NCBI GenBank assembly: GCA_944387915.1
Contig: CALXGT010000037.1
Span: 1-64,000 of the forward strand
Direction: 5' to 3'
Length of the DNA stretch: 64,000 nucleotides
Source: an uncultured Clostridia bacterium
GTDB taxonomy: Bacteria > Bacillota > Clostridia > Oscillospirales > Ruminococcaceae
Shown here one piece after another: positions 10,038 through 24,661 of the stretch; within the stretch, counting starts at the first letter, position 1, and each line of letters opens with the position of its first letter. The notes under the pieces are model-generated. The model saw nothing but the letters and a program-made list of their open reading frames with translations. It searched no databases and was not told where the DNA came from. The position numbers and the translations under genes are program-made.

Positions 10038-10952
10038 ATGTCATTTTTCCGAAATGTAGCGACAGACTTTAGACGGAACAAAGTGCTGTATATCCTTTGT
10101 ATCCCGATCCTCGCGTGGTATGCTATCTTCTGCTATGCGCCTATGGTCGGCGTTGTGATGGCATTCCAGAACTTTAACCCGGTAAAAGGAATCTCTGGAA
10201 GCCCCTGGGTTGGCTTTAAACATTTTGTGGATTTCTTCACCGGAAACTACGCGTGGCGTGTTATTCGTAACACCTTCGTCATCAGCTTTTACGATTTGAT
10301 CTTTAACTTCCCGGCGCCTATTATTTTCGCGTTGTTACTGAACGAAGTAAAGAACAAATACTACAAGAAAGTTGTTCAGACCATCAGCTATATGCCTTAC
10401 TTCATTTCGATGGTTGTTATGTGCGGTATTATTGTTGACTTCACCAAATCCGGTGGATTGATTTCCTCCATCGTGGCGATGCTCACCGGTACCGAGGCGA
10501 GAAACCTTTTGGGTGACGCCAGCTGCTACCGTGCCATTTACATCGGCACCAATATCTGGCAGGGCGTTGGTTACGGCTCCATCATTTATCTGGCGGCTTT
10601 GTCCAGCGTTGACCAGGAGCTTTATGAAGCGGCCACCATCGACGGTGCGGGACGTTGGAAACAAACCTTACATATTACTCTTCCCGGTATTTCCAGCACC
10701 ATCATCATCATGCTGATTATGAAAATGGGTATGATGTTGGCAGTCGGTTCGGAAAAAACCCTTCTGCTTTATAGCCCGGCGACTTACGAGACGGCTGACG
10801 TTATCTCGACGCTCGTTTACCGTAAAGGTTTCGAAGACTACAACTACGGTTTCTCTACGGCGGTCGGTCTGTTTAACTCCGTTGTTAATACGACCTTCTT
10901 GTTAATCACCAACTGGCTCAGCAGAAAGTACTCTGAGACCAGCTTGTTCTAA
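10038..10952 (+). CDS. ABC transporter permease, LplB type
   Basis: A 304-residue inner-membrane permease of the carbohydrate uptake (CUT1) class, closest in pattern to LplB-like subunits for oligosaccharides or glycosylated compounds. Six membrane helices are expected; the EAA loop that docks the ATPase reads YEAATIDGAGRWKQ near residues 195-208. The start follows AAAAAGGAGAAGAGAT. It forms a pair with the next gene. No substrate-binding lipoprotein is encoded beside it, which is unusual, and the ATPase (often a shared MsmK-like subunit) is also elsewhere. Confidence 0.9.
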   Translation: MSFFRNVATDFRRNKVLYILCIPILAWYAIFCYAPMVGVVMAFQNFNPVKGISGSPWVGFKHFVDFFTGNYAWRVIRNTFVISFYDLIFNFPAPIIFALLLNEVKNKYYKKVVQTISYMPYFISMVVMCGIIVDFTKSGGLISSIVAMLTGTEARNLLGDASCYRAIYIGTNIWQGVGYGSIIYLAALSSVDQELYEAATIDGAGRWKQTLHITLPGISSTIIIMLIMKMGMMLAVGSEKTLLLYSPATYETADVISTLVYRKGFEDYNYGFSTAVGLFNSVVNTTFLLITNWLSRKYSETSLF

Positions 10953-10972
10953 AGGAAGGAGGAGAAACAACA

Positions 10973-11860
10973 ATGGCAATGGTTGAAAAGAAGGGTCCTG
11001 CCCGAATTGCATTCTTGATTTTTAACTATATCCTGATGGGCGTCATTGCTTTGATCTGCTTTATGCCGATCTGGCACGTTATTATGGCTTCTGTCAGTGA
11101 CCCCGGTCTGGTTGACGCTTACAGCGGATTGATCGTCTGGCCTTTGGGTGAACCTTCTCTCTATGGTTACGGTTACATTACCGGTTACAAAAACATCTGG
11201 GTTGGTTATGGCAATACTATTTTCTACGTTATTGCACAGTGCTTGATTACTGGTACGTTGACGGTTTTGGCTGGTTACTTGCTTTCCAGAAAGCGGTTCC
11301 GTTACCGCAACATCCTCACCGGTATTATTACCTTTACTATGTTGTTCCACGGTGGTACGATTCCTACTTACATGGTTATCCGTAAGTTGGGCTTGCTCAA
11401 CACCCGTTGGGCGATGTTACTGCCTATGGCTTTGATGGTTTTCTACATCATCATCATGCGTACTTCGATCGCGTCTATCCCGGACAGCTTGGAAGAATCT
11501 GCCCGTATCGATGGCGCCGGCGAATTTACGATCGTATTTAAGATCATCCTTCCTCTGTGTAAGGCGACCTTTGCGGTTATCATTTTGTTCGTTGCGGTTG
11601 CGAAGTGGAACGAGTGGTTCCCCGCTTTGCTGTACCTCGATGATGAGAAACTCTATCCTTTGCAGATGTTCATGCGTGAAATCTTGATCCAGCAGACGGA
11701 TATCCAGTCCTCCAGCGACGCGATGGAAAACCTCGCGATCTACAAGCTGCTTGCGAAATACTGCGCCATCGTTGCTGCGACTTTGCCGATCCTTTGCGTA
11801 TATCCCTTCGTCCAGAAGTACTTCGTATCTGGCGTTATGATCGGTTCTGTAAAAGGTTAA
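10973..11860 (+). CDS. ABC transporter permease, YtcP type
   Basis: A 295-residue CUT1 permease, the usual partner of LplB-type subunits. Six membrane helices are expected and the EAA loop is EESARIDGAGEFTI near residues 178-191. The start follows AAAGGAAGGAGGAGAAACAACA, 20 bases after the stop of the first permease. A strong terminator follows directly, so the operon ends without a binding-protein gene. The substrate is probably an oligosaccharide, judged only from the family and the sugar-related neighbourhood. Confidence 0.9.
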   Translation: MAMVEKKGPARIAFLIFNYILMGVIALICFMPIWHVIMASVSDPGLVDAYSGLIVWPLGEPSLYGYGYITGYKNIWVGYGNTIFYVIAQCLITGTLTVLAGYLLSRKRFRYRNILTGIITFTMLFHGGTIPTYMVIRKLGLLNTRWAMLLPMALMVFYIIIMRTSIASIPDSLEESARIDGAGEFTIVFKIILPLCKATFAVIILFVAVAKWNEWFPALLYLDDEKLYPLQMFMREILIQQTDIQSSSDAMENLAIYKLLAKYCAIVAATLPILCVYPFVQKYFVSGVMIGSVKG

Positions 11861-15412: not shown

Positions 15413-16231
15413 ATGTACGACGGAAATCCAAACATCAACGAGAAAGGCTACATCTATGCAAAATGGAAAGTTGCGCCGAATACGTATATGATCGGCTATC
15501 ATGGCACCATGTATGCCTATCTGTTTATCGGTACCGAAAAGGCTCTTCTTATTGATACCTTTTACGGAGAGGGTAATCTGCGCCAGTTTGTAGAAGACCT
15601 TGCCGGGATGCCTGTTATGGTGGCGAATACCCATGGCCATTTCGATCATACCGGCGGTAATGCGTATTGGGAGCATGTTTATATTAGCGCCGAGGGACAA
15701 AAGGATATGAAGGTAGCTTTGGGCGAGGAACATAAAAAGGCGTTCCTGGCGATGCCTCATCCCGATTACACCGCTACCACCATTGGCGACGGCTATGTAT
15801 TTGATTTGGGTGGAAGAACGGTAGAGGTCATCGATATTCCCTGTCACCATCCCGGAAGCGTTGCTTTCTTAGACAGCCAGACGGGCTTCCTTTGCAGCGG
15901 CGATGAATTGGAGCCGGGCCAGGTTCTTTTGGGCTCCGGCGGACCGGACAAAATTGCCAAACATAAACGGAATATGGAAAAACTGTACAAGCGGATTGAC
16001 GAGATTAAATTTGTTTGCCCTGCCCATAACGGCAGTCCCTGTGATCCGGAGTTGATTTCCGATTATATTGAATTAGACACGCGGATCTTAAACGGTACCG
16101 CCCAAATTATGCCGAATATGGCAGGATTTGGCTACGGACCGAAGCCTCGTAAGTTTCGTCCGGAAGATCCGGATCAGGTTCGCGCCCAGTATGGTGGTGC
16201 TTCCATCTGTTACGCTCCTTGGGATAAATAG
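15413..16231 (+). CDS. MBL-fold metallo-hydrolase
   Basis: A 272-residue metallo-beta-lactamase-fold enzyme with a binuclear metal site. The THGHFDHTGG motif (residues 73-82) gives H74, H76, D78 and H79; further ligands are the His in PCHHPGS (near 144), the Asp in CSGDELEP (near 163) and the His in PAHNG (near 205). The start follows AGGAGGTTTTTACT. Substrate unknown; such proteins act on lactones, thioesters or phosphoesters. It probably shares a transcript with the esterase. Confidence 0.88.
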   Translation: MYDGNPNINEKGYIYAKWKVAPNTYMIGYHGTMYAYLFIGTEKALLIDTFYGEGNLRQFVEDLAGMPVMVANTHGHFDHTGGNAYWEHVYISAEGQKDMKVALGEEHKKAFLAMPHPDYTATTIGDGYVFDLGGRTVEVIDIPCHHPGSVAFLDSQTGFLCSGDELEPGQVLLGSGGPDKIAKHKRNMEKLYKRIDEIKFVCPAHNGSPCDPELISDYIELDTRILNGTAQIMPNMAGFGYGPKPRKFRPEDPDQVRAQYGGASICYAPWDK

Positions 16232-16393: not shown

Positions 16394-16417
16394 AAATAAA
16401 AATGGCAGGTGAGCGCG

Positions 16418-17671
16418 ATGGCGGAGCTTACGCCCGTAAAACAAACAGGAAATAAACCCAGAAATATTAAAAGCAACAACCAGAAAGTGGTTTTGGCTTT
16501 GTTGAGACAAAAGAAGGTGATGTCGCTGAGCGAAATTGCGGAGCAAGTCAACCTCAGCAAAACGACGATCACTAAGATTGTCAGCACGCTCATGGAAAAG
16601 AAGTATGTCATTTCTGTGGGAAAAGGTTCTTCTACGGAAGAAGGAGGAAAACGTCCGGAACTGTTTTCCTTTGATGTAACGTGCGCGTATTCCATTGCTT
16701 TACAGCTTCGTGGCGGTATGATGGTGGGAGCGCTGATGGATTTATCTTCCCGGGTACTTGAGGAATATGAATATAATCTTCCCAGAGAACTGCTCTATGA
16801 AGACTATGTATCCGCTGCTGCCACGGTGGTGAAGGAACTCCTCACGATTAGCGGGAAAAAGCCGGAGCAAATCTGCGGCGTTGTCTTGGGCTGCGACGGA
16901 ATTGTGGATGCGATTCGGGGAATTTTGCGCTTTTCTGTCCATCGGAAATGGGATCTGAATCTTCCCATTGCGGCTGATTTGAAGGAAAAGATCGGCTTGG
17001 AAATTCCGATTTATGTGGATAATAGCTGCCGCTTTAACGGTTATGCGGAGCTCAAAGCCAAGGAAAAGGATATGTACGGGAGTTCCATTACCATATATAC
17101 TTCTTATTCTACAGGTGGTTGTATTTTATTTGATGGAAGAATGCTCCATGGTGAAAACGGGTTTATGGGAGAATATGGTCATGTAATTGTGAACCCAAAT
17201 TCTACTGTCCGTTGTACTTGCGGAGGGTATGGCTGTTTTGAGACGATGGTATCTCCTACGGCGCTTTTGAATAACGCTTATGAGGGCTACGAACAATATC
17301 CGGACTCTCTTCTTTATCGGAAAGCAAAAGAACAATCCTTAGAGTATCGGGACATTTTTGATGCCGCGAATCTCAATGATCCCTTTGCCTGTAAGTTGAT
17401 GGACCAGATGGCAAAATATTTCGCCATTTTGATCCATAACATTACCTTGCTTCATGACCCGCAAAATGTTATTCTTCAAGGCGTTTACACCGAAGCCGGA
17501 GAGTATTTTATCAACTCACTTCGTAAAACATTGAATGATATGCCCTTTTATAAAATTAAACGCAACTTAAATATTTCCTATTCAACGGTAAACCCGAAAG
17601 TTGCCTTTTTCTATGGCGCTTCCCGTTATGTTGCGGACACTTATTTTAACGATGAAGCCCGATACGAGTAA
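16418..17671 (+). CDS. ROK family transcriptional regulator
   Basis: A 417-residue NagC/XylR-type regulator: an N-terminal winged helix-turn-helix (about 20-80, with MSLSEIAEQVNLSKTTITK), then a ROK sugar-kinase-like domain. The zinc signature is present as CTCGGYGCFE with its upstream partner GEYGHV. The ATP-phosphate region is degenerate (LQLRGGMMVGALMD), as in regulators rather than kinases. The ATG chosen follows CAGGTGAGCGCG; a GTG nine bases earlier is possible. It lies between the esterase operon and the sugar catabolic operon and could control either; the inverted repeat at 16372 suggests self-control. Confidence 0.9.
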   Translation: MAELTPVKQTGNKPRNIKSNNQKVVLALLRQKKVMSLSEIAEQVNLSKTTITKIVSTLMEKKYVISVGKGSSTEEGGKRPELFSFDVTCAYSIALQLRGGMMVGALMDLSSRVLEEYEYNLPRELLYEDYVSAAATVVKELLTISGKKPEQICGVVLGCDGIVDAIRGILRFSVHRKWDLNLPIAADLKEKIGLEIPIYVDNSCRFNGYAELKAKEKDMYGSSITIYTSYSTGGCILFDGRMLHGENGFMGEYGHVIVNPNSTVRCTCGGYGCFETMVSPTALLNNAYEGYEQYPDSLLYRKAKEQSLEYRDIFDAANLNDPFACKLMDQMAKYFAILIHNITLLHDPQNVILQGVYTEAGEYFINSLRKTLNDMPFYKIKRNLNISYSTVNPKVAFFYGASRYVADTYFNDEARYE

Positions 17672-17701: not shown

Positions 17702-17757
17702 GAAAAACAGCGGATTTCGCCCTCAAATGAGGGGGCGAGCCGCTGTTTTTTCTTTTT
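17702..17757. terminator. Bidirectional terminator between the ROK gene and galM
   Basis: Outer stem AAAAACAGCGG / CCGCTGTTTTT with an inner CGCCCTC / GAGGGGGCG hairpin, and T runs on both strands. Confidence 0.85.
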
Positions 17758-17773
17758 GGTAAAATGATTGGTT

Positions 17774-18826
17774 TTACCGAATTCCGAAGCAAAATGCGGT
17801 CTTAAAGTGGTAAAGGGTATTCCCTTTACAGACAGGATCGGGAAAGTGGCTGAAATTGATGGAATTCGGATAGCTTTGTGTCTCAAAACAATAGGCGTGG
17901 TGCTTCCCGTAAAGGGCTCCGCCTTTAGATGGAGGCATTTTTAAAGGCATATTGTTCATGGTGTAAAACTGCATGCCGGGACGATCGGTAAAGACCGTTA
18001 AAGTTCTTCCTGTATCCGGATCATAAGCGGAAGCAGCTTTTCGGTAACCGCGTCCCCGGATGCAGAAATTGTGGTCGAATCCGCCGAACGCCACGATTTG
18101 GGGATCGTCGGAGGCAAAACCGTCGCCGATTGGTTTTTCCGAAGTAAAGTCAAAAGCCGTTCCCTTGACGGGGCGGATCTCGCCGGTAGGGGCACAGGTT
18201 TTGTCGTTGGGGGTAAAGAAGTCCGCTTCGATTTGGATCTGCTGGTCGTCGATCACCCCGCTGTGATGACCGGCTAAGTTAAAATAACAGTGATTGGTAA
18301 TGGAAACCGGAGTATCTTCGGTAGGAAGGATACGGTAATCCAACTGGAACTTGTGATCCTCGGTAAAGGTATAGGTCAGCGTCAGGGTAAGGCATCCCGG
18401 ATAGCCGCCCCTTCCATCGTCAAAATGGCGCAGCGTCACCGATGCCGCATCTTCGGTCTGGGAAGAACCTACATAGTCGAAAACAAACCGGGAGTAATTT
18501 CCGCTTCCGCCATGCATGGCATTGCCGTCCCGTCCTTGTTCCAGCTGGTAAACCCGACCGTTAAGAGAAAATTTCGCTCCTACGATCCGGTTGGCGAAAC
18601 GACCGATGATTAAGGCGGCGCCAAGCCCTCTGGCTCGGTAGTCCTCTAAGGTGTTTTGCCCCAAAATGACGTCATCCAGCTTCCCGTCTTGATCCGGTAC
18701 CACAATGGAATGGATGATGCCGCCATAGGAGATCACTTCAGCGTAGGCGCCATCGGACGCCTCCATATGAAATAAGGTAACGGCCTTCCCGTCCAATGTT
18801 CCGAAGGGTTTGGTAGTTAATCTCAT
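17774..18826 (-). CDS. galM: Aldose 1-epimerase
   Basis: A 350-residue mutarotase interconverting alpha and beta anomers of aldoses. The general acid/base residues are visible: H105 in NAMHGGSGNY, H179 in ITNHCYFNL, and the Glu in YCFETQSYPN near 326. The start follows AAGGAATCGTCC. It is downstream of the sugar catabolic operon but separated from it by a terminator at 18849-18886, so expression may depend on read-through. Its role would be to supply the anomer used by the isomerase. Confidence 0.93.
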   Translation of the reverse strand: MRLTTKPFGTLDGKAVTLFHMEASDGAYAEVISYGGIIHSIVVPDQDGKLDDVILGQNTLEDYRARGLGAALIIGRFANRIVGAKFSLNGRVYQLEQGRDGNAMHGGSGNYSRFVFDYVGSSQTEDAASVTLRHFDDGRGGYPGCLTLTLTYTFTEDHKFQLDYRILPTEDTPVSITNHCYFNLAGHHSGVIDDQQIQIEADFFTPNDKTCAPTGEIRPVKGTAFDFTSEKPIGDGFASDDPQIVAFGGFDHNFCIRGRGYRKAASAYDPDTGRTLTVFTDRPGMQFYTMNNMPLKMPPSKGGALYGKHHAYCFETQSYPNSINFSHFPDPVCKGNTLYHFKTAFCFGIR

Positions 18827-18848
18827 GGACGATTCCTTCTTTCCTCAA

Positions 18849-18886
18849 TAAAAAGGGGTCAGAAGGGAACCACCCGACCCCTTTTT
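18849..18886 (-). terminator. Terminator between the cupin gene and galM
   Basis: AAAAAGGGGTC and GACCCCTTTTT flank a 15-base loop. It would end the sugar operon or set a lower level for galM. Confidence 0.75.
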
Positions 18887-18888
18887 CG

Positions 18889-19383
18889 TTAAATTTCGAT
18901 TTCGATTCGATCATCGCCCTCTAAGAACGTCGCGTGCATATCGTTTCCGTAGGTGCGCTGAGGCAAGAGGCACAGGATATGAGCAACATCGGTGTCATAA
19001 ACGAACTGTCTTCCATGGAGTACGCCAGGATTCAGTTTTACAAAGGTGCCCTTAGGGATATGGAAGGCTTCAATGGTTTTGGGATCCACATTGCGTCCGC
19101 TGGGACCGACAAAGATAACGCAGTCGGCGTCAATGGGAAGAAGCCCTTCACAGGTGTACTGGTGGTATTCCACCATGGAAATAATGGGATCGTCCTTGGA
19201 TACCCGGCAGGTAGACGCAGAGGGAAGAGTGGTGGGGCTTAAAAATAAAGAGATCCGATCGGGATAAAATTCGTTGGAACGGCCGGGTCCTTCGGGACGG
19301 AAGGAGTCATCGGTCAAGGAAGCGTAATCGCCGTATTTGCGGAATTTTTCCAAGGAAAGCTCTTGAACAGGAATTTTCAGCAT
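18889..19383 (-). CDS. AllA-like (ureidoglycolate lyase family) cupin protein
   Basis: A 164-residue single-domain protein of the ureidoglycolate lyase/AllA type beta-barrel fold. Features include SLEKFRKYGDYA at the start, the central EYHQYTCEGLLPIDADC segment and the barrel-closing IPKGTFVKLNPGVLHGRQF. The chosen ATG is preceded by AAAGGTGACAAAT. No allantoin genes are nearby; it ends a sugar-catabolism operon, so an ureidoglycolate role is doubtful and it may act on a sugar-derived intermediate or be a sugar-binding accessory. This is inference from context. Confidence 0.7.
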   Translation of the reverse strand: MLKIPVQELSLEKFRKYGDYASLTDDSFRPEGPGRSNEFYPDRISLFLSPTTLPSASTCRVSKDDPIISMVEYHQYTCEGLLPIDADCVIFVGPSGRNVDPKTIEAFHIPKGTFVKLNPGVLHGRQFVYDTDVAHILCLLPQRTYGNDMHATFLEGDDRIEIEI

Positions 19384-19440
19384 ATTTGTCACCTTTCTTT
19401 ACAAAAAGGCGGCGCCGGCTGCCGCCGCCTTTCCAAATGT

Positions 19441-20832
19441 TTATAAGCTCTTAGGACCGTCGGCATCGGGATGATCGTAGATCAAGCCCAAATACCGGGC
19501 TGCTTCTTTCAAAGCGGCCTGATAATTGCCGTACATACCGCCCACATGGTGAATGTAAGGACCGTACATCAGACGGTCTTCCCATTTCGCCCAGTCGTCC
19601 ACCTCAAACCAGACATAGGTTCCGGTGGTCTTGGGACCGGTGGTGGATTTGCCTTCGCCGGCAAAGAGATAGTAATCGCCGTCTAAATCGTCGAAACGGG
19701 CAATGGTGATGGGGCCTTGTTTCAGTTCCCAGCATTCCTGGCCTCTTTGAGACATGCAAGCGGCGCAGTCATCCGCTTTCAGGGAGTAGGGGAAAGGACC
19801 GCAGTGCCACAGAAGCTCCGCATTGTCGTTTTGAGGATGACGGATGGTGAGGTCGGCAAAGAATTGGCTGTTTTCGTATAAGCCTGCCGCACGGAGGATC
19901 GCTAAAGTAATAGCGCCGTTGACGTCGGTCTCACAGGCAATAGGCAGCCCTTCGTCCGCCATCTCGCCCAAAGTCATGCAGGGAGGTACGCCGGCAATGC
20001 CGTTAAAAGCAGACCAGCACTCCATAGCGCCTACGGTACATCCGTTTTGGAGCATCAATTCTTTGGTGGCCATTTTGATACCAGCAACCAGCTTGGCATC
20101 GTTTTCCGCCATTTTGCTGAAATCGATGCGGGAAGTTAAATCCGCAAAATAAGCTTTAAATTCATCGCCGTTTTCCTCAACGATCTTTTTCGCCAAATTG
20201 ACAATGGCGGTGGGAGCGATGGGAACGGTAATGATACCAAAGCGCTTGAGCAAAGCGGCTTCATCGGTCATAACGCTCATAAAGGAAGAGGGACGAGCGC
20301 CGATCTTGGCAACCCGAAGACCCTTAAGGGCTTTGACCACCGCGGCTGCGCGAAGGAAGGTCACAAAACCGTTTTTAAATTTTTCATCTTCCGTCTCACA
20401 GTTGGTGATGTAGCTGAAGGTGACACCCTGACGGCGCATAACCTTGGTGGAAGCGAACATACCGCACTGGGTATCTCTGCCCCGTTTTTCGTCGGTGTTG
20501 GGAACCGCGTCTCTCGCGCCCCAGACCAGGGTGGGAAGCTTAAAGGCGCCGGCGATGACCGCGGCGACCTGTTCCTCGCCAAAATCGCAGAAGGGAACAA
20601 ACAACGCGTCCACATTGGCGGCCTTCAGCTTTGCGACGACTGCGTCCACGTCCGCGGGCTTGAAAGCGATCCCGTTTTCACAGATATCGTCGATATCTAC
20701 GTACTCCACCACGTCCGGCTTGATTTCTCGGATCACTTTCATAAACCGGTCTTTTTGCCGTTTGGCTTCATCCATACTCAGCATCATACGTTTGGTTGGC
20801 ACAATACCCAAAGTCAGGGTCTGTTTATACAT
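19441..20832 (-). CDS. L-fucose/L-arabinose isomerase family protein
   Basis: A 463-residue cytoplasmic protein of the fucose/arabinose isomerase superfamily, which converts aldoses to ketoses using Mn2+. Candidate metal ligands are the Glu and Asp of CETDVNGAITLAIL (near 300) and the His of LLWHCGPFPYS (near 340). It is shorter than classic FucI (about 590) and resembles the short clade that lacks part of the N-terminal domain. It overlaps the kinase gene upstream by eight bases, so the pair is translationally coupled. The substrate cannot be told; fucose, arabinose or a less common sugar are all open. Confidence 0.82.
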   Translation of the reverse strand: MYKQTLTLGIVPTKRMMLSMDEAKRQKDRFMKVIREIKPDVVEYVDIDDICENGIAFKPADVDAVVAKLKAANVDALFVPFCDFGEEQVAAVIAGAFKLPTLVWGARDAVPNTDEKRGRDTQCGMFASTKVMRRQGVTFSYITNCETEDEKFKNGFVTFLRAAAVVKALKGLRVAKIGARPSSFMSVMTDEAALLKRFGIITVPIAPTAIVNLAKKIVEENGDEFKAYFADLTSRIDFSKMAENDAKLVAGIKMATKELMLQNGCTVGAMECWSAFNGIAGVPPCMTLGEMADEGLPIACETDVNGAITLAILRAAGLYENSQFFADLTIRHPQNDNAELLWHCGPFPYSLKADDCAACMSQRGQECWELKQGPITIARFDDLDGDYYLFAGEGKSTTGPKTTGTYVWFEVDDWAKWEDRLMYGPYIHHVGGMYGNYQAALKEAARYLGLIYDHPDADGPKSL

Positions 20833-21793
20833 AGTGAATCCCCCTCTTGTAAAATTCTACCCGCTGATCCAACTCGGTATAGTCGATCTCGCCGGTGGCC
20901 AAAAACTTCTCCACCATTTCTTTGGTGGGAATACCGCTTCTTCCTCCGATGCGGGTGCATTTGATGGCGGAAACCGCCGAAGCGTACCGGGCGCTTTCCT
21001 TCGCGTCCATACCATATACCAGCGCGGCCAGATAACCGCCATGGAACACATCACCGGCGCCCAAGGTATCGGTGGCGTCTACCGAGAAAGCGGGGATCTC
21101 AAAATACCCCGTCTCTTCGGAATAACCGACGCAGCCCTTCTCTCCAAAAGTAAATACCACAATAGAAGGTCCTTTGGCGGCGATGGTTTTACAGTTTTCT
21201 TCGTAGTTTTTATCCTGGAACAAAGCGTCGTAGACAAATTCCGAAGCCACAAACATGTCGATAAGCCCAATATTTTCCATTAAGGAATCGCTGTAGTTAT
21301 CGGCGTCGATAAAGACTTTGGCTCCCGCCTGCTTGGCAACGTGGCAGGCTTTGATGACCACATCGCTGAAACGGGCGATATAAAAATATTTGGTATTCTT
21401 TAAGAAATCTTCGTTAAGCTCCTCGTAGCGAATCGGTTCAACAGTACCGGCGCCGGTGCCTAAAATGCTGCGGCCCATCGTTTCTCTGTCACTTAAAATG
21501 ACATTGAACATAGTAAACTGCCCTTCGCGCAGGATCATGTTGTCTACGTTAATGTTGTGGCGCTGAAAATCCTTGTAGCAGAATTTTCCGAAGATATCGT
21601 CCCCCAAAGCACCCATAATGGCACAGCTTACACCCTGACGGGCGGAGGCGACGATACCGCTGGCCACCTTTCCGCCACCCTGCCAGCTGCTGGCGTTGAC
21701 ACGAACGCCCTGGTTGGGAGTGGGGAGGTGATCGACGTTCATTACAAAATCCTGACAAGGGGAGTCAATGCCCACAATATCAAATGGTTTCAT
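20825..21793 (-). CDS. PfkB family carbohydrate kinase
   Basis: A 322-residue ribokinase/PfkB-fold sugar kinase. The N-terminal glycine motif is WQGGGKVASGIVA (about 36-48) and the C-terminal signature with the catalytic Asp is DTLGAGDVFHGGY (near 240-250). It should phosphorylate the ketose made by the isomerase. The start is uncertain: the ATG used here begins a typical PfkB N-terminus but has no ribosome site, while an ATG at 21862 has AAAGGA only three bases upstream and adds 23 atypical residues. An inverted repeat (21808-21859) covers this stretch. Confidence 0.85.
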   Translation of the reverse strand: MKPFDIVGIDSPCQDFVMNVDHLPTPNQGVRVNASSWQGGGKVASGIVASARQGVSCAIMGALGDDIFGKFCYKDFQRHNINVDNMILREGQFTMFNVILSDRETMGRSILGTGAGTVEPIRYEELNEDFLKNTKYFYIARFSDVVIKACHVAKQAGAKVFIDADNYSDSLMENIGLIDMFVASEFVYDALFQDKNYEENCKTIAAKGPSIVVFTFGEKGCVGYSEETGYFEIPAFSVDATDTLGAGDVFHGGYLAALVYGMDAKESARYASAVSAIKCTRIGGRSGIPTKEMVEKFLATGEIDYTELDQRVEFYKRGIHYV

Positions 21794-21807
21794 AAATTTG
21801 TTTATCT

Positions 21808-21859
21808 GATGCCGGCTTCGCATCCAATGCCGTTTTGACAAGCGGATACGGCCGGCATC
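21808..21859. repeat. Inverted repeat at the kinase start
   Basis: GATGCCGGC (21808-21816) and its exact complement GCCGGCATC (21851-21859) flank 34 bases. It may fold in the mRNA between the aldolase and kinase genes and affect translation of the kinase. Confidence 0.45.
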
Positions 21860-21892
21860 CATCCTTTCTGGTTATTTTTATCCCACAAATTC

Positions 21893-22747
21893 TTACAGGC
21901 TGAATTTATTGGGGTTCAGCAGGCGGATCTTGCTCTTGACAAAGGAAACCATGGCTTCTTCGATGCCGACCATGACTGCCCGTCCGGAGGCTCTCTGGGC
22001 GCCCGCGTAATCGGTGTCTTTCAGCGCGTTAAAGAATGCACGGTCATACTCGGTGGCGATATTAAATTTGCTCATGCCTTGGTTTACCGCTTCCTGCATC
22101 TGCCAGTCGGGAATGTCGGAACCGCCGTGGAGCACCAGAGGAATGGGGAGTTTGGCCCGCAGCGCTTTGATGCGGTCAAAGTCTAAGTTAGGGGTGACGA
22201 TGTAGGTACCATGCGCGTTACCTACGGCGACCGCTAAGCTGTGGCATCCGGTTCTCTGTACGAAATCCACCGCCTGATCCACATTGGTGTAATGGTCGCT
22301 GTTTTGGATATCGTCAATGTTGGCGCCGCTTCCTACATGTCCCAATTCCGCTTCAATATCGATTCCGAAGACGGCGGCGGTCTCTACAACGCTCTTGGTC
22401 AAAGCGACATTTTCCTCATAAGGAAGCGCGGAACCATCCACCATAACCGAGGGGAACCCATCCCGAATACCGGCAACGGCAATCTCGAAGTTTCTCGAAT
22501 GGTCCAGATGGACACCAACGGGAACGGAAGCTTTCTCCGCCAGATCCTTGGCGATGTAGCTGACGTATTTGTTGGCCATATGTCCTTCCAAGCCGGGGAA
22601 GTACTGGATAATAATGGGCACCTTCTCCTCTTCCGCCGCTTGGATGGCGTATTTAATGGTTTCAAAGGTAAACATGTTGACGGCGGCAACGCCGTATTTG
22701 TTTTCGGTAGCGTGTTTTAAGATATCATTGACTTTTGCTAAAGGCAT
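21893..22747 (-). CDS. Class II fructose/tagatose-bisphosphate aldolase family protein
   Basis: A 284-residue zinc aldolase that should split a ketose phosphate into dihydroxyacetone phosphate and an aldehyde. Zinc ligands are visible in VHLDHS (near 80), GNAHG (near 180) and VLHGGSD (near 208); AELGHVGSG (about 133-141) holds the acidic catalytic region. Length matches GatY/KbaY/Fba. The start follows AAGGAGGTCTTCTT. It is the second gene of the operon. The lack of the extended phosphate loop features of classical Fba leaves open whether the true substrate is a 1-phosphate or a bisphosphate. Confidence 0.88.
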   Translation of the reverse strand: MPLAKVNDILKHATENKYGVAAVNMFTFETIKYAIQAAEEEKVPIIIQYFPGLEGHMANKYVSYIAKDLAEKASVPVGVHLDHSRNFEIAVAGIRDGFPSVMVDGSALPYEENVALTKSVVETAAVFGIDIEAELGHVGSGANIDDIQNSDHYTNVDQAVDFVQRTGCHSLAVAVGNAHGTYIVTPNLDFDRIKALRAKLPIPLVLHGGSDIPDWQMQEAVNQGMSKFNIATEYDRAFFNALKDTDYAGAQRASGRAVMVGIEEAMVSFVKSKIRLLNPNKFSL

Positions 22748-22790
22748 AAGAAGACCTCCTTGTTAAAATGTATAGTGACCATTCTTTGGA

Positions 22791-23753
22791 TCAACCGATA
22801 GACAACCGTTCCAGTTCCTTGTTGAGACGGTCAAATTCTTCGTCGCTTAAGCTCCATTCAAAGGTGGCGCAGTTTTCTTTCGCTTCTCTTACATTGGAAA
22901 GACCGCAAAGGGCGGTACCGACGAATTCCTGCTTGGCGCTCCAGTTGATGGCGACCTGAGCCACCGGCTTGTTATGAGCGGCGGCGATCTCGTCCATAAC
23001 CTTCAAAAGCTCCATGACCTTGGAGAACTTGGGCTCTTTGAAGAAATCATAGAAGGTGTTGCGGATATCCCGTTCGTTTTCGAATTTGGGGATTTCGCGG
23101 AACGCGCCGGTCAAAATGCCGGAACCGAGAGAACCGTAAGTCAGGGTGTTGATTCCCTTGTCGTAAGCCCATTTCATCAACTTTTCATCCCGGCGGTTAA
23201 CCATAGAATAAGGAGGCTGGATCACGTCCACCTGTCCCCATTCTTCCGCTTCCAGGATCTGTTCTTCGTTAAAGTTGGATAAACCGATGTACCGGATATA
23301 ACCCCGTTTTTTCAGTACGTTTAACGCCGACATCGTTTCGGCGATATCGGTAGCAGGATCCGGCCAGTGGATAAAGTAAAAGTCCACATAATCCGTCCCC
23401 AGGAGATTCAAAGAGGTCTGGATTTCACGCATAATGTTCTTATAGCTGGCATTTCGGGAATTTCCTCTGGTCACAGGGGAAGCGTAGGGAACCAAGCCGC
23501 ATTTGGTGGAAATCAAAATTTTGCTGCGGTCAAAGCCATGGATCGCTTCACCGACAATTTTTTCCGAAGCGCCGGTACCATAGCAGGGAGCGGTATCGAT
23601 GAGATTGACGCCGCCGTCTAATGCCGCCTGGATCGCTTCGATGGCGTCGTTACGGTCAACGTTCCCGTAACGGCCGGATTCGCCGATGGCCCAGGTACCT
23701 ACTGCGAGCTCCGATACGTCTACGTTTGCATTTTGAAAGTGTTTATAACGCAT
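22791..23753 (-). CDS. Aldo/keto reductase
   Basis: A 320-residue NAD(P)H-dependent (alpha/beta)8 barrel reductase. The catalytic tetrad is visible as Asp and Tyr in LIDTAPCYGTG, Lys in ILISTKCGL and His in FYFIHWPDP. It is the first gene of the five-gene sugar operon and probably reduces the sugar itself or the aldehyde released by the aldolase. The start follows CGGAGGAAAGAAT; the frame is open 31 codons further upstream but without a start signal and across the promoter. Confidence 0.92.
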   Translation of the reverse strand: MRYKHFQNANVDVSELAVGTWAIGESGRYGNVDRNDAIEAIQAALDGGVNLIDTAPCYGTGASEKIVGEAIHGFDRSKILISTKCGLVPYASPVTRGNSRNASYKNIMREIQTSLNLLGTDYVDFYFIHWPDPATDIAETMSALNVLKKRGYIRYIGLSNFNEEQILEAEEWGQVDVIQPPYSMVNRRDEKLMKWAYDKGINTLTYGSLGSGILTGAFREIPKFENERDIRNTFYDFFKEPKFSKVMELLKVMDEIAAAHNKPVAQVAINWSAKQEFVGTALCGLSNVREAKENCATFEWSLSDEEFDRLNKELERLSIG

Positions 23754-23817: not shown

Positions 23818-23846
23818 ATTATAACCAAACCTCCTATGTTTGTCAA
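23818..23846 (-). promoter_or_regulatory. Promoter of the sugar catabolic operon
   Basis: Reverse strand TTGACA (23841-23846), 17-base spacer, TATAAT (23818-23823): a perfect consensus. A second TTGACA with AATAAT at 17 bases lies about 65 bases further upstream. Such a strong promoter implies tight repression. Confidence 0.9.
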
Positions 23847-23973: not shown

Positions 23974-24002
23974 TTGACAGGAAAAAAAGATTCTTCTATA
24001 AT
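23974..24002 (+). promoter_or_regulatory. Promoter of the flavoprotein gene
   Basis: TTGACA (23974-23979), 17-base spacer, TATAAT (23997-24002), a perfect consensus. Confidence 0.92.
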
Positions 24003-24028: not shown

Positions 24029-24661
24029 ATGAAAATGAAAGTGCTGCTGTTAAACGGAAGCCCCCATAAAAACGGATGTATTGCCAGAGCCCTCTGCGAA
24101 GTGGAAGGTATTTTTCAAAAAAATGGGATTGAAACCGTGAACTTTTGGATCGGCGCCAAGCCGGTGGGAGGATGTGCCGCCTGCGGAGGCTGCCGGAAAG
24201 GGGAAGGTTGTGTTTTCGGAAAAGAGGACGGGGTCAATGCATGTCAAAAGCTTCTGGCGGAGTGCGATGGTGTAGTGATCGGTTCTCCCGTCCATTACGC
24301 TTCTTCCGCTGGCTCTTTGGGAGGCTTTTTGGATCGGCTTTTTTACAGCAACCGCACTCCCTTTGACGGAAAATTGGGAGCGGCTGTGGTAAGCTGCCGA
24401 CGGGGAGGCGCTTCTGCGGCGTTCGATCGTTTAAACAAATATTTTACTATTTCCGGGATGCCGGTGGTATCTTCCCGGTATTGGAACAGCGTCCATGGAA
24501 ATACGCCCGAAGAGGTGGAGCAAGACGCCGAGGGGCTTCAGACCATGCGGATTTTGGGCGAGAACATAAGCTGGCTTTTGCGGTGCATTGAAGCGGGAAA
24601 ACAGCAAGGTATTGTAATGACGCCGGCGGAAACCGGAAACCGCACCAATTTCATTCGGTAA
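24029..24661 (+). CDS. Flavodoxin-fold NADPH-dependent FMN reductase
   Basis: A 210-residue flavodoxin-like reductase of the FMN_red/iron-sulfur flavoprotein type. The FMN-phosphate loop is LNGSPHKNGCIARAL (residues 8-22). Four cysteines (CAACGGCRKGEGC, near 50-62) resemble the compact motif of iron-sulfur flavoproteins that bind 4Fe-4S, and SPVHYASSAG follows. The start ATG follows GGAGAGGAGAA. It is a single-gene unit between a consensus promoter and a terminator. Substrate unknown; quinones or disulfides are possible. Confidence 0.88.
   Translation: MKMKVLLLNGSPHKNGCIARALCEVEGIFQKNGIETVNFWIGAKPVGGCAACGGCRKGEGCVFGKEDGVNACQKLLAECDGVVIGSPVHYASSAGSLGGFLDRLFYSNRTPFDGKLGAAVVSCRRGGASAAFDRLNKYFTISGMPVVSSRYWNSVHGNTPEEVEQDAEGLQTMRILGENISWLLRCIEAGKQQGIVMTPAETGNRTNFIR

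Follow-up and report, generated by a model that had tools for sequence, protein, structure and literature searches.

Positions 17774-23753 of a 64,000-nucleotide stretch of contig CALXGT010000037.1 (the window), from an uncultured Clostridia bacterium of the Ruminococcaceae, hold six genes of apparent sugar catabolism, all on the minus strand. They are transcribed in the order aldo/keto reductase (AKR), aldolase, kinase, isomerase, cupin and mutarotase:

22791..23753, minus strand: AKR, IolS/GSP69/YdjG-like (PF00248, Aldo_ket_red, 2e-72)
21893..22747, minus strand: class II aldolase (PF01116, F_bP_aldolase, 4.3e-86)
20825..21790, minus strand: PfkB-family sugar kinase (PF00294, PfkB, 9.8e-42)
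19441..20832, minus strand: aldose-ketose isomerase, AraA/FucI fold (Fucose_iso_C, 3.5e-8, with AlphaFold2 and Foldseek)
18889..19392, minus strand: metal cupin, AllA-like, SqvB/DUF4867 homologue (Ureidogly_lyase, 4.1e-5, weak and barely above the cut-off, with Foldseek)
17774..18826, minus strand: aldose 1-epimerase, a GalM/YihR-type mutarotase (PF01263, Aldose_epim, 1.4e-68)
23818..23846, minus strand: putative operon promoter, TTGACA-17-TATAAT (sigma-70-like consensus, 12/12 match)

The intergenic gaps measure 43-102 bp, and the kinase and isomerase genes overlap by 8 bp. The listed open reading frame of the AKR begins at TTG 23846; a GGAGGA ribosome site stands before ATG 23753, which is the likely start. 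Taken with the perfect -35/-10 elements and this strong ribosome site, the short gaps and the overlap make it likely that the six genes form a single operon. The listed kinase frame begins at 21862, and its start was placed at MKPFDIV from comparison with relatives. The GC content gave no clear signal of a foreign origin (0.51 for the operon against a window mean of 0.49, standard deviation 0.017), although the isomerase is missing from all same-family genomes listed in the sample of the window's order described below.

The original prediction for this region had named an isomerase, a kinase, an aldolase, a reductase and a cupin. These genes are all present with Pfam matches, and their family calls (FucI-like, PfkB, GatY/Fba-like, AKR and AllA-like) were correct. 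The order given, from isomerase to reductase, runs opposite to transcription, in which the AKR comes first, and the heading of four enzymes omitted the sixth gene, the GalM-type mutarotase at 17774-18826.

The genome-neighbourhood search proposed with that prediction found the gene set again in 17 Clostridia loci, 13 from a scan of GTDB contigs (isomerase identity 57-100%) and four from a genome search (L079-L082), all with at least 51% identity. One of them (L036) hardly differs from the window, and several end at contig edges, the gene counts being minima. The kinase was present in 16 loci, the aldolase in 15, the AKR in 11 (two of these only 32-34% alike), the cupin in 11, a ROK-type regulator in seven, and the mutarotase, adjoining the isomerase, in just four. 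The 13 GTDB loci belong to Oscillospiraceae, uncultured Clostridia metagenome assemblies, Clostridium asparagiforme, Eisenbergiella tayi, Hungatella hathewayi, H. effluvii, Catonella morbi, Herbinix, Roseburia and others; the carriers are probably anaerobic, mostly gut-type bacteria. The same genes in other genera are mostly 44-65% identical, so chance adjacency is ruled out. Among 295 sampled genomes of the window's order, the close isomerase clade (at least 51% identity) occurs in five and any relative of the isomerase in 41. The two Hungatella genomes have their kinase and aldolase (39-45%) beside a second isomerase of 40% identity, leaving the pairing of these genes with the first isomerase ambiguous. 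In each of these loci (L044, 4552-11389; L046, 4694-11389), two isomerase paralogues, 40% and 60% identical to that of the window, occur together with ribose-type ATP-binding cassette (ABC) transporter genes.

Sequence search alone found no PDB relative of the isomerase. Its AlphaFold2 model (pLDDT 93, pTM 0.93) was compared with solved structures by Foldseek, and the best 32 matches were L-arabinose isomerases, followed by D-arabinose/L-fucose isomerases, with TM about 0.8. E301, D303 and H343 are unchanged across 30 relatives and, by analogy, are plausible metal ligands. The modelled fold and these conserved metal-site residues place the enzyme in the AraA/FucI superfamily. Homology to E. 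coli FucI went undetected by hhalign (probability 1.9%), and the Pfam match is confined to the C-terminal domain. An L-fucose or rhamnose pathway was rejected on this ground and because the operon has neither an FGGY kinase nor a FucA-type aldolase. A myo-inositol (IolC/IolJ) route was set aside, the operon having no IolB, IolD or IolE homologue.

The cupin model matched AllA-type ureidoglycolate lyases first (3.8e-11) and the DUF4867 protein SqvB (9gyy) sixth (1.3e-6). The PF16161 (DUF4867) model gives no match to the cupin; hhalign against the DUF4867 profile returned 97%, and at most 0.3% with shuffled columns. E75, H77, E82 and H126 are invariant and appear equivalent to the SqvB metal ligands Glu97, His99, Glu103 and His150 (PMC11968277), being arranged along the motif as in SqvB except for one extra residue between the His and the second Glu. 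The cupin family appears to be a sister of SqvB/DUF4867, and a role as a ring-opening or mutarotation helper is proposed for it. A cupin at 1246-1788 of L124 lies between the two families, being 29% identical to that of the window and matching PF16161 weakly. DUF4867 cupins are known to pair with PF02952 isomerases outside sulfoglycolysis, in aldose/ketose clusters that mostly use FGGY kinases (PMC11968277); the operon shares that pairing, but its cupin is not recognised by the DUF4867 model.

Sulfoglycolysis provides the precedent for this architecture. The sulfo-Embden-Meyerhof-Parnas 2 (sulfo-EMP2) pathway combines SqvD (FucI family), SqvB (AllA-like cupin) and SqiA (class II aldolase), and in hybrid sulfo-EMP/EMP2 clusters SqvD and SqiA replace YihS and YihT, the remaining sulfo-EMP enzymes including the PfkB-type kinase YihV (PMC9594981). 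With these systems (SqvB, SqvD, SqiK or YihV, SqiA and a reductase) the operon has in common a FucI-family isomerase, an SqvB-type cupin, a class II aldolase, a PfkB kinase as in YihV, a mutarotase and, as proposed, reduction of the aldehyde half. The claim that the combination matches no textbook pathway is correct only in part, as SqvD, SqvB and SqiA together make up sulfo-EMP2, SqvD and SqiA occur in the hybrids (PMC9594981), and PfkB kinase, aldolase and AKR are united in E. coli ydj.

The operon might therefore be read as a hybrid sulfo-EMP/EMP2 operon for sulfoquinovose, with the AKR as sulfolactaldehyde reductase, since it corresponds to the hybrids family for family (SqvB-like, SqvD-like, YihV-like, SqiA-like and YihR-like; PMC9594981). 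The cupin is homologous to SqvB, SftI is the sole NCBIfam match of the isomerase, and the kinase has YihV as its best solved match, shares KCTR-GGR-GIP with it and keeps one arginine of its putative sulfonate site. Nevertheless, judged from sequence, the family fails three tests of sulfonate specificity, namely the SftI score, the YihV triad and a YihQ-type sulfoquinovosidase.

The isomerase scores 106 bits against the SftI cut-off of 700, compared with 204-413 for same-order isomerases from genomes in which DUF4867 and a YihQ above its cut-off lie nearby, although these enzymes, too, all fall below 700 (best 413). Two of the latter loci also have TauE exporters. Since SftI is the sole NCBIfam model to match and the score lies so far under that of bona fide neighbours, the SftI match was not accepted as proof of sulfoquinovose use. 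In the isomerase tree the SftI-like, DUF4867/YihQ-linked enzymes fall outside a clade of 45 rows that contains the window isomerase together with apiose-type and other ones; the tree has some long deep branches, and exactly where these join is unsure.

K27, N109 and R138, which we take to be the sulfonate triad of YihV, are present in the YihV sequence. The window kinase, in which the catalytic GAGD motif is present, reads G/T/R at these columns. Among 11 family kinases, K27 occurs in none, N109 in one (that of L039, which reads Y-N-L) and R138 in two, and none has the full triad. Moreover, the kinase of true sulfo-EMP2 is PfkA-type.

The window's genome (98.9% complete) contains neither a GH31 protein nor a TauE exporter, in a sulfoquinovosidase search that covered GH31 and not the GH188 family. 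YihQ was over its cut-off in none of five genomes with the close isomerase, although G135 has a hit of 403 bits against the cut-off of 553. GH31 proteins adjoining four related operons (L042, L043, L045 and L048) are closer to YicI than to YihQ (339 versus 168 bits in L042) and lack R301, W304 and Y508, residues present in the YihQ sequence and presumably those that make it a sulfoquinovosidase. On the YihQ and SftI markers, genuine sulfoquinovose clusters from the same order do far better. A Gfo/Idh/MocA enzyme in L082 has inositol/L-glucose dehydrogenases as its best solved matches, and among the matches listed none is described as a sulfoquinovosidase. The operon differs further from the sulfoglycolytic clusters in having an AKR in place of a YihU-type reductase. 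On these sequence comparisons sulfoquinovose is an unlikely substrate, and we give the hybrid operon little chance of being correct. Of the sugars suggested originally, a sulfo-sugar is disfavoured by the failed tests, and an uncommon hexose or deoxy-sugar stays viable.

The aldolase has the zinc-site and catalytic residues (HLDH/AHG/LHG) and, as a class II aldolase (PF01116), falls within the SqiA family. Its nearer PDB match is YdjI (1.6e-54; 42% identity), ahead of 8q57 and 8q58 (1e-45 and 4e-45), which we take to be SqiA structures. R257 of AgaY, present in its sequence, is assumed to be the arginine holding the C6 phosphate in bisphosphate aldolases (FBA/TBP). It is missing in eight of 10 family aldolases, so the tail of the ketose phosphate is probably unphosphorylated; the window and L038 enzymes have it. 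The AKR has GSP69 as its best PDB match (3.8e-55), with IolS next.

E. coli ydj likewise joins an AKR, a PfkB kinase and a class II aldolase, and YdjH/YdjI are annotated for an octuluronate, so that the substrate might be a long-chain or oxidised sugar handled in a ydj-like way. Besides the aldolase identity to YdjI, the AKR is 32% identical to YdjG and the kinase 26% to YdjH. However, the zinc dehydrogenases YdjJ and YdjL are missing from the operon, an isomerase and a cupin, which ydj lacks, stand in their place, and the kinase is nearer to YihV than to YdjH. Such a route appears very improbable.

We propose instead that the operon has the build of sulfo-EMP2/hybrid sulfoglycolysis but serves a different, probably uncharged aldose by a ketose-1-phosphate route forming dihydroxyacetone phosphate (DHAP), a reading to which we assign a probability of roughly 0.6. 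It builds on the enzyme families, folds, metal-site residues, operon structure and recurrence established above by sequence and model comparison; the reactions, the sequence in which they would occur and the position phosphorylated are deduced from family chemistry. The mutarotase and metal cupin would provide the correct or open-chain form of the sugar, and the isomerase would turn the aldose into a ketose. The kinase, a proposed ketose 1-kinase, would phosphorylate it at C1. The aldolase would in turn cleave the ketose 1-phosphate into DHAP, which would enter glycolysis, and a short aldehyde. The AKR, as the proposed reductase for this aldehyde, would yield an alcohol, whose exit from the cell would carry off reducing equivalents.

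Several observations weigh against this proposal. The best PDB match of the kinase is YihV (2.8e-29). In the window, the kinase retains an Arg in the R138 column and the aldolase one at the position for the C6 phosphate, and for these reasons the substrate in the window's lineage might still carry an anionic tail. In addition, the four-enzyme set is incomplete in some relatives, as no aldolase was found near the C. asparagiforme operon (L039) and the AKR is present in only 11 of the 17 loci.

With a pentose such as D-xylose or D-arabinose, the ketopentose 1-phosphate would give DHAP and glycolaldehyde, which the AKR would reduce to ethylene glycol. L-arabinose isomerases are nearest in the isomerase fold, D-apiose isomerases are its nearest relatives with an assigned function, ribokinase models score best on the kinase in NCBIfam and an alpha-xylosidase model scores best on the GH31 neighbours. 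Fold similarity, however, does not set the substrate, the C307/F308 positions of YicI differ in these GH31 proteins, and a GH13 gene beside L080 suggests hexosides. XylA/XylB is, moreover, the usual xylose route of anaerobes. A pentose is thus improbable, if somewhat less so than a ydj-type substrate.

The search met no related cluster to which a sugar has been assigned; among isomerase relatives with such an assignment, the nearest are those of D-apiose clusters (ApsI, AptAB and a kinase), which belong to the same larger family at 36-39% identity. In place of a PfkB kinase and an aldolase, those clusters have a two-part transketolase and a kinase of the FGGY type, annotated as glycerol kinase. 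Some carry DUF4038/DUF5060 genes, presumably of GH140 type. D-apiose was rejected for the operon because the transketolase is missing and, by our own reasoning, aldol cleavage of apiulose 1-phosphate would yield formaldehyde.

Neighbouring genes in relatives bear on the uncharged aldose preferred here. Besides the four GH31 genes, GH13 and a Gfo/Idh/MocA protein adjoin L080. Sulfatases with no obvious N-terminal extension lie directly upstream of the operon in L041 (4558-7566) and L079 (4839-6299), the former accompanied by a radical-SAM/SPASM maturase-like gene. Esterase genes occur in L044, L045 and L046, and also 3 kb from the operon in the window. Transporters near related operons are LacY-like major facilitator superfamily proteins or LplB/YtcP-type ABC systems. 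These neighbours suggest an alpha-linked sugar open to esterification or sulfation. Since alpha-glycosidases adjoin the relatives' operons, our guess is a gluco- or xylo-configured hexose or 6-deoxyhexose, for example D-quinovose, the unsulfonated analogue of sulfoquinovose. More tentatively still, and with the odds against it, the operon might represent a widespread gut-type EMP-like ketose-1-phosphate pathway for a sugar, such as D-quinovose, for which no anaerobic catabolism is known, with an undescribed SqvB-like cupin family.

Two further features lie beyond the mutarotase gene:

17716..17739, plus strand: stem-loop in the gap separating the convergent ROK and mutarotase genes, resembling a terminator on this strand (9 pairs, 6 GC)
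16409..17671, plus strand: ROK/NagC-type regulator, convergent with the operon (PF00480, 1.6e-42, with HTH)

The ROK/NagC-type protein is a possible regulator of the operon. Its gene is adjoined by one for a metallo-beta-lactamase-fold hydrolase (15413-16231, plus strand), as also in L038 and, in the same place, L036; the hydrolase may be a lactonase tied to the operon's sugar. An LplB/YtcP-type ABC permease pair (10038-11860, plus strand) lies 6 kb from the operon and is not beside it in the close relative L038. On the other side, a second 12/12 promoter match (23974-24002, plus strand) diverges from the operon promoter before an FMN-reductase-like gene (24029-24661). A more distant isomerase clade occurs with an aldolase and a PfkB kinase in L093, L096 and L097, with an FAD-linked oxidase and a 4Fe-4S protein added in L093; it possibly marks another route with no assigned sugar.

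The type of pathway is already known. In the literature searched, no sugar was found assigned to a set that joins an isomerase clade distinct from SftI, an SqvB-like cupin outside DUF4867 and an AKR, nor to a quinovose or comparable aldolase cluster. Where a FucI-like isomerase occurs with an SqvB-like cupin, a PfkB kinase and a class II aldolase, annotation as sulfoquinovose breakdown should await a test of sulfonate specificity. The operon also offers a second cupin family for studying the role of SqvB-type proteins, which merits attention because the E. rectale member SftX gave no detected mutarotase activity (PMC11968277). As the operon occurs in cultured, named Clostridia (E. tayi, H. hathewayi, C. 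asparagiforme and C. morbi), its sugar can be found experimentally. If true, a D-quinovose-type pathway would show that sulfoglycolysis recruited its enzymes from ordinary deoxysugar metabolism, or the reverse.

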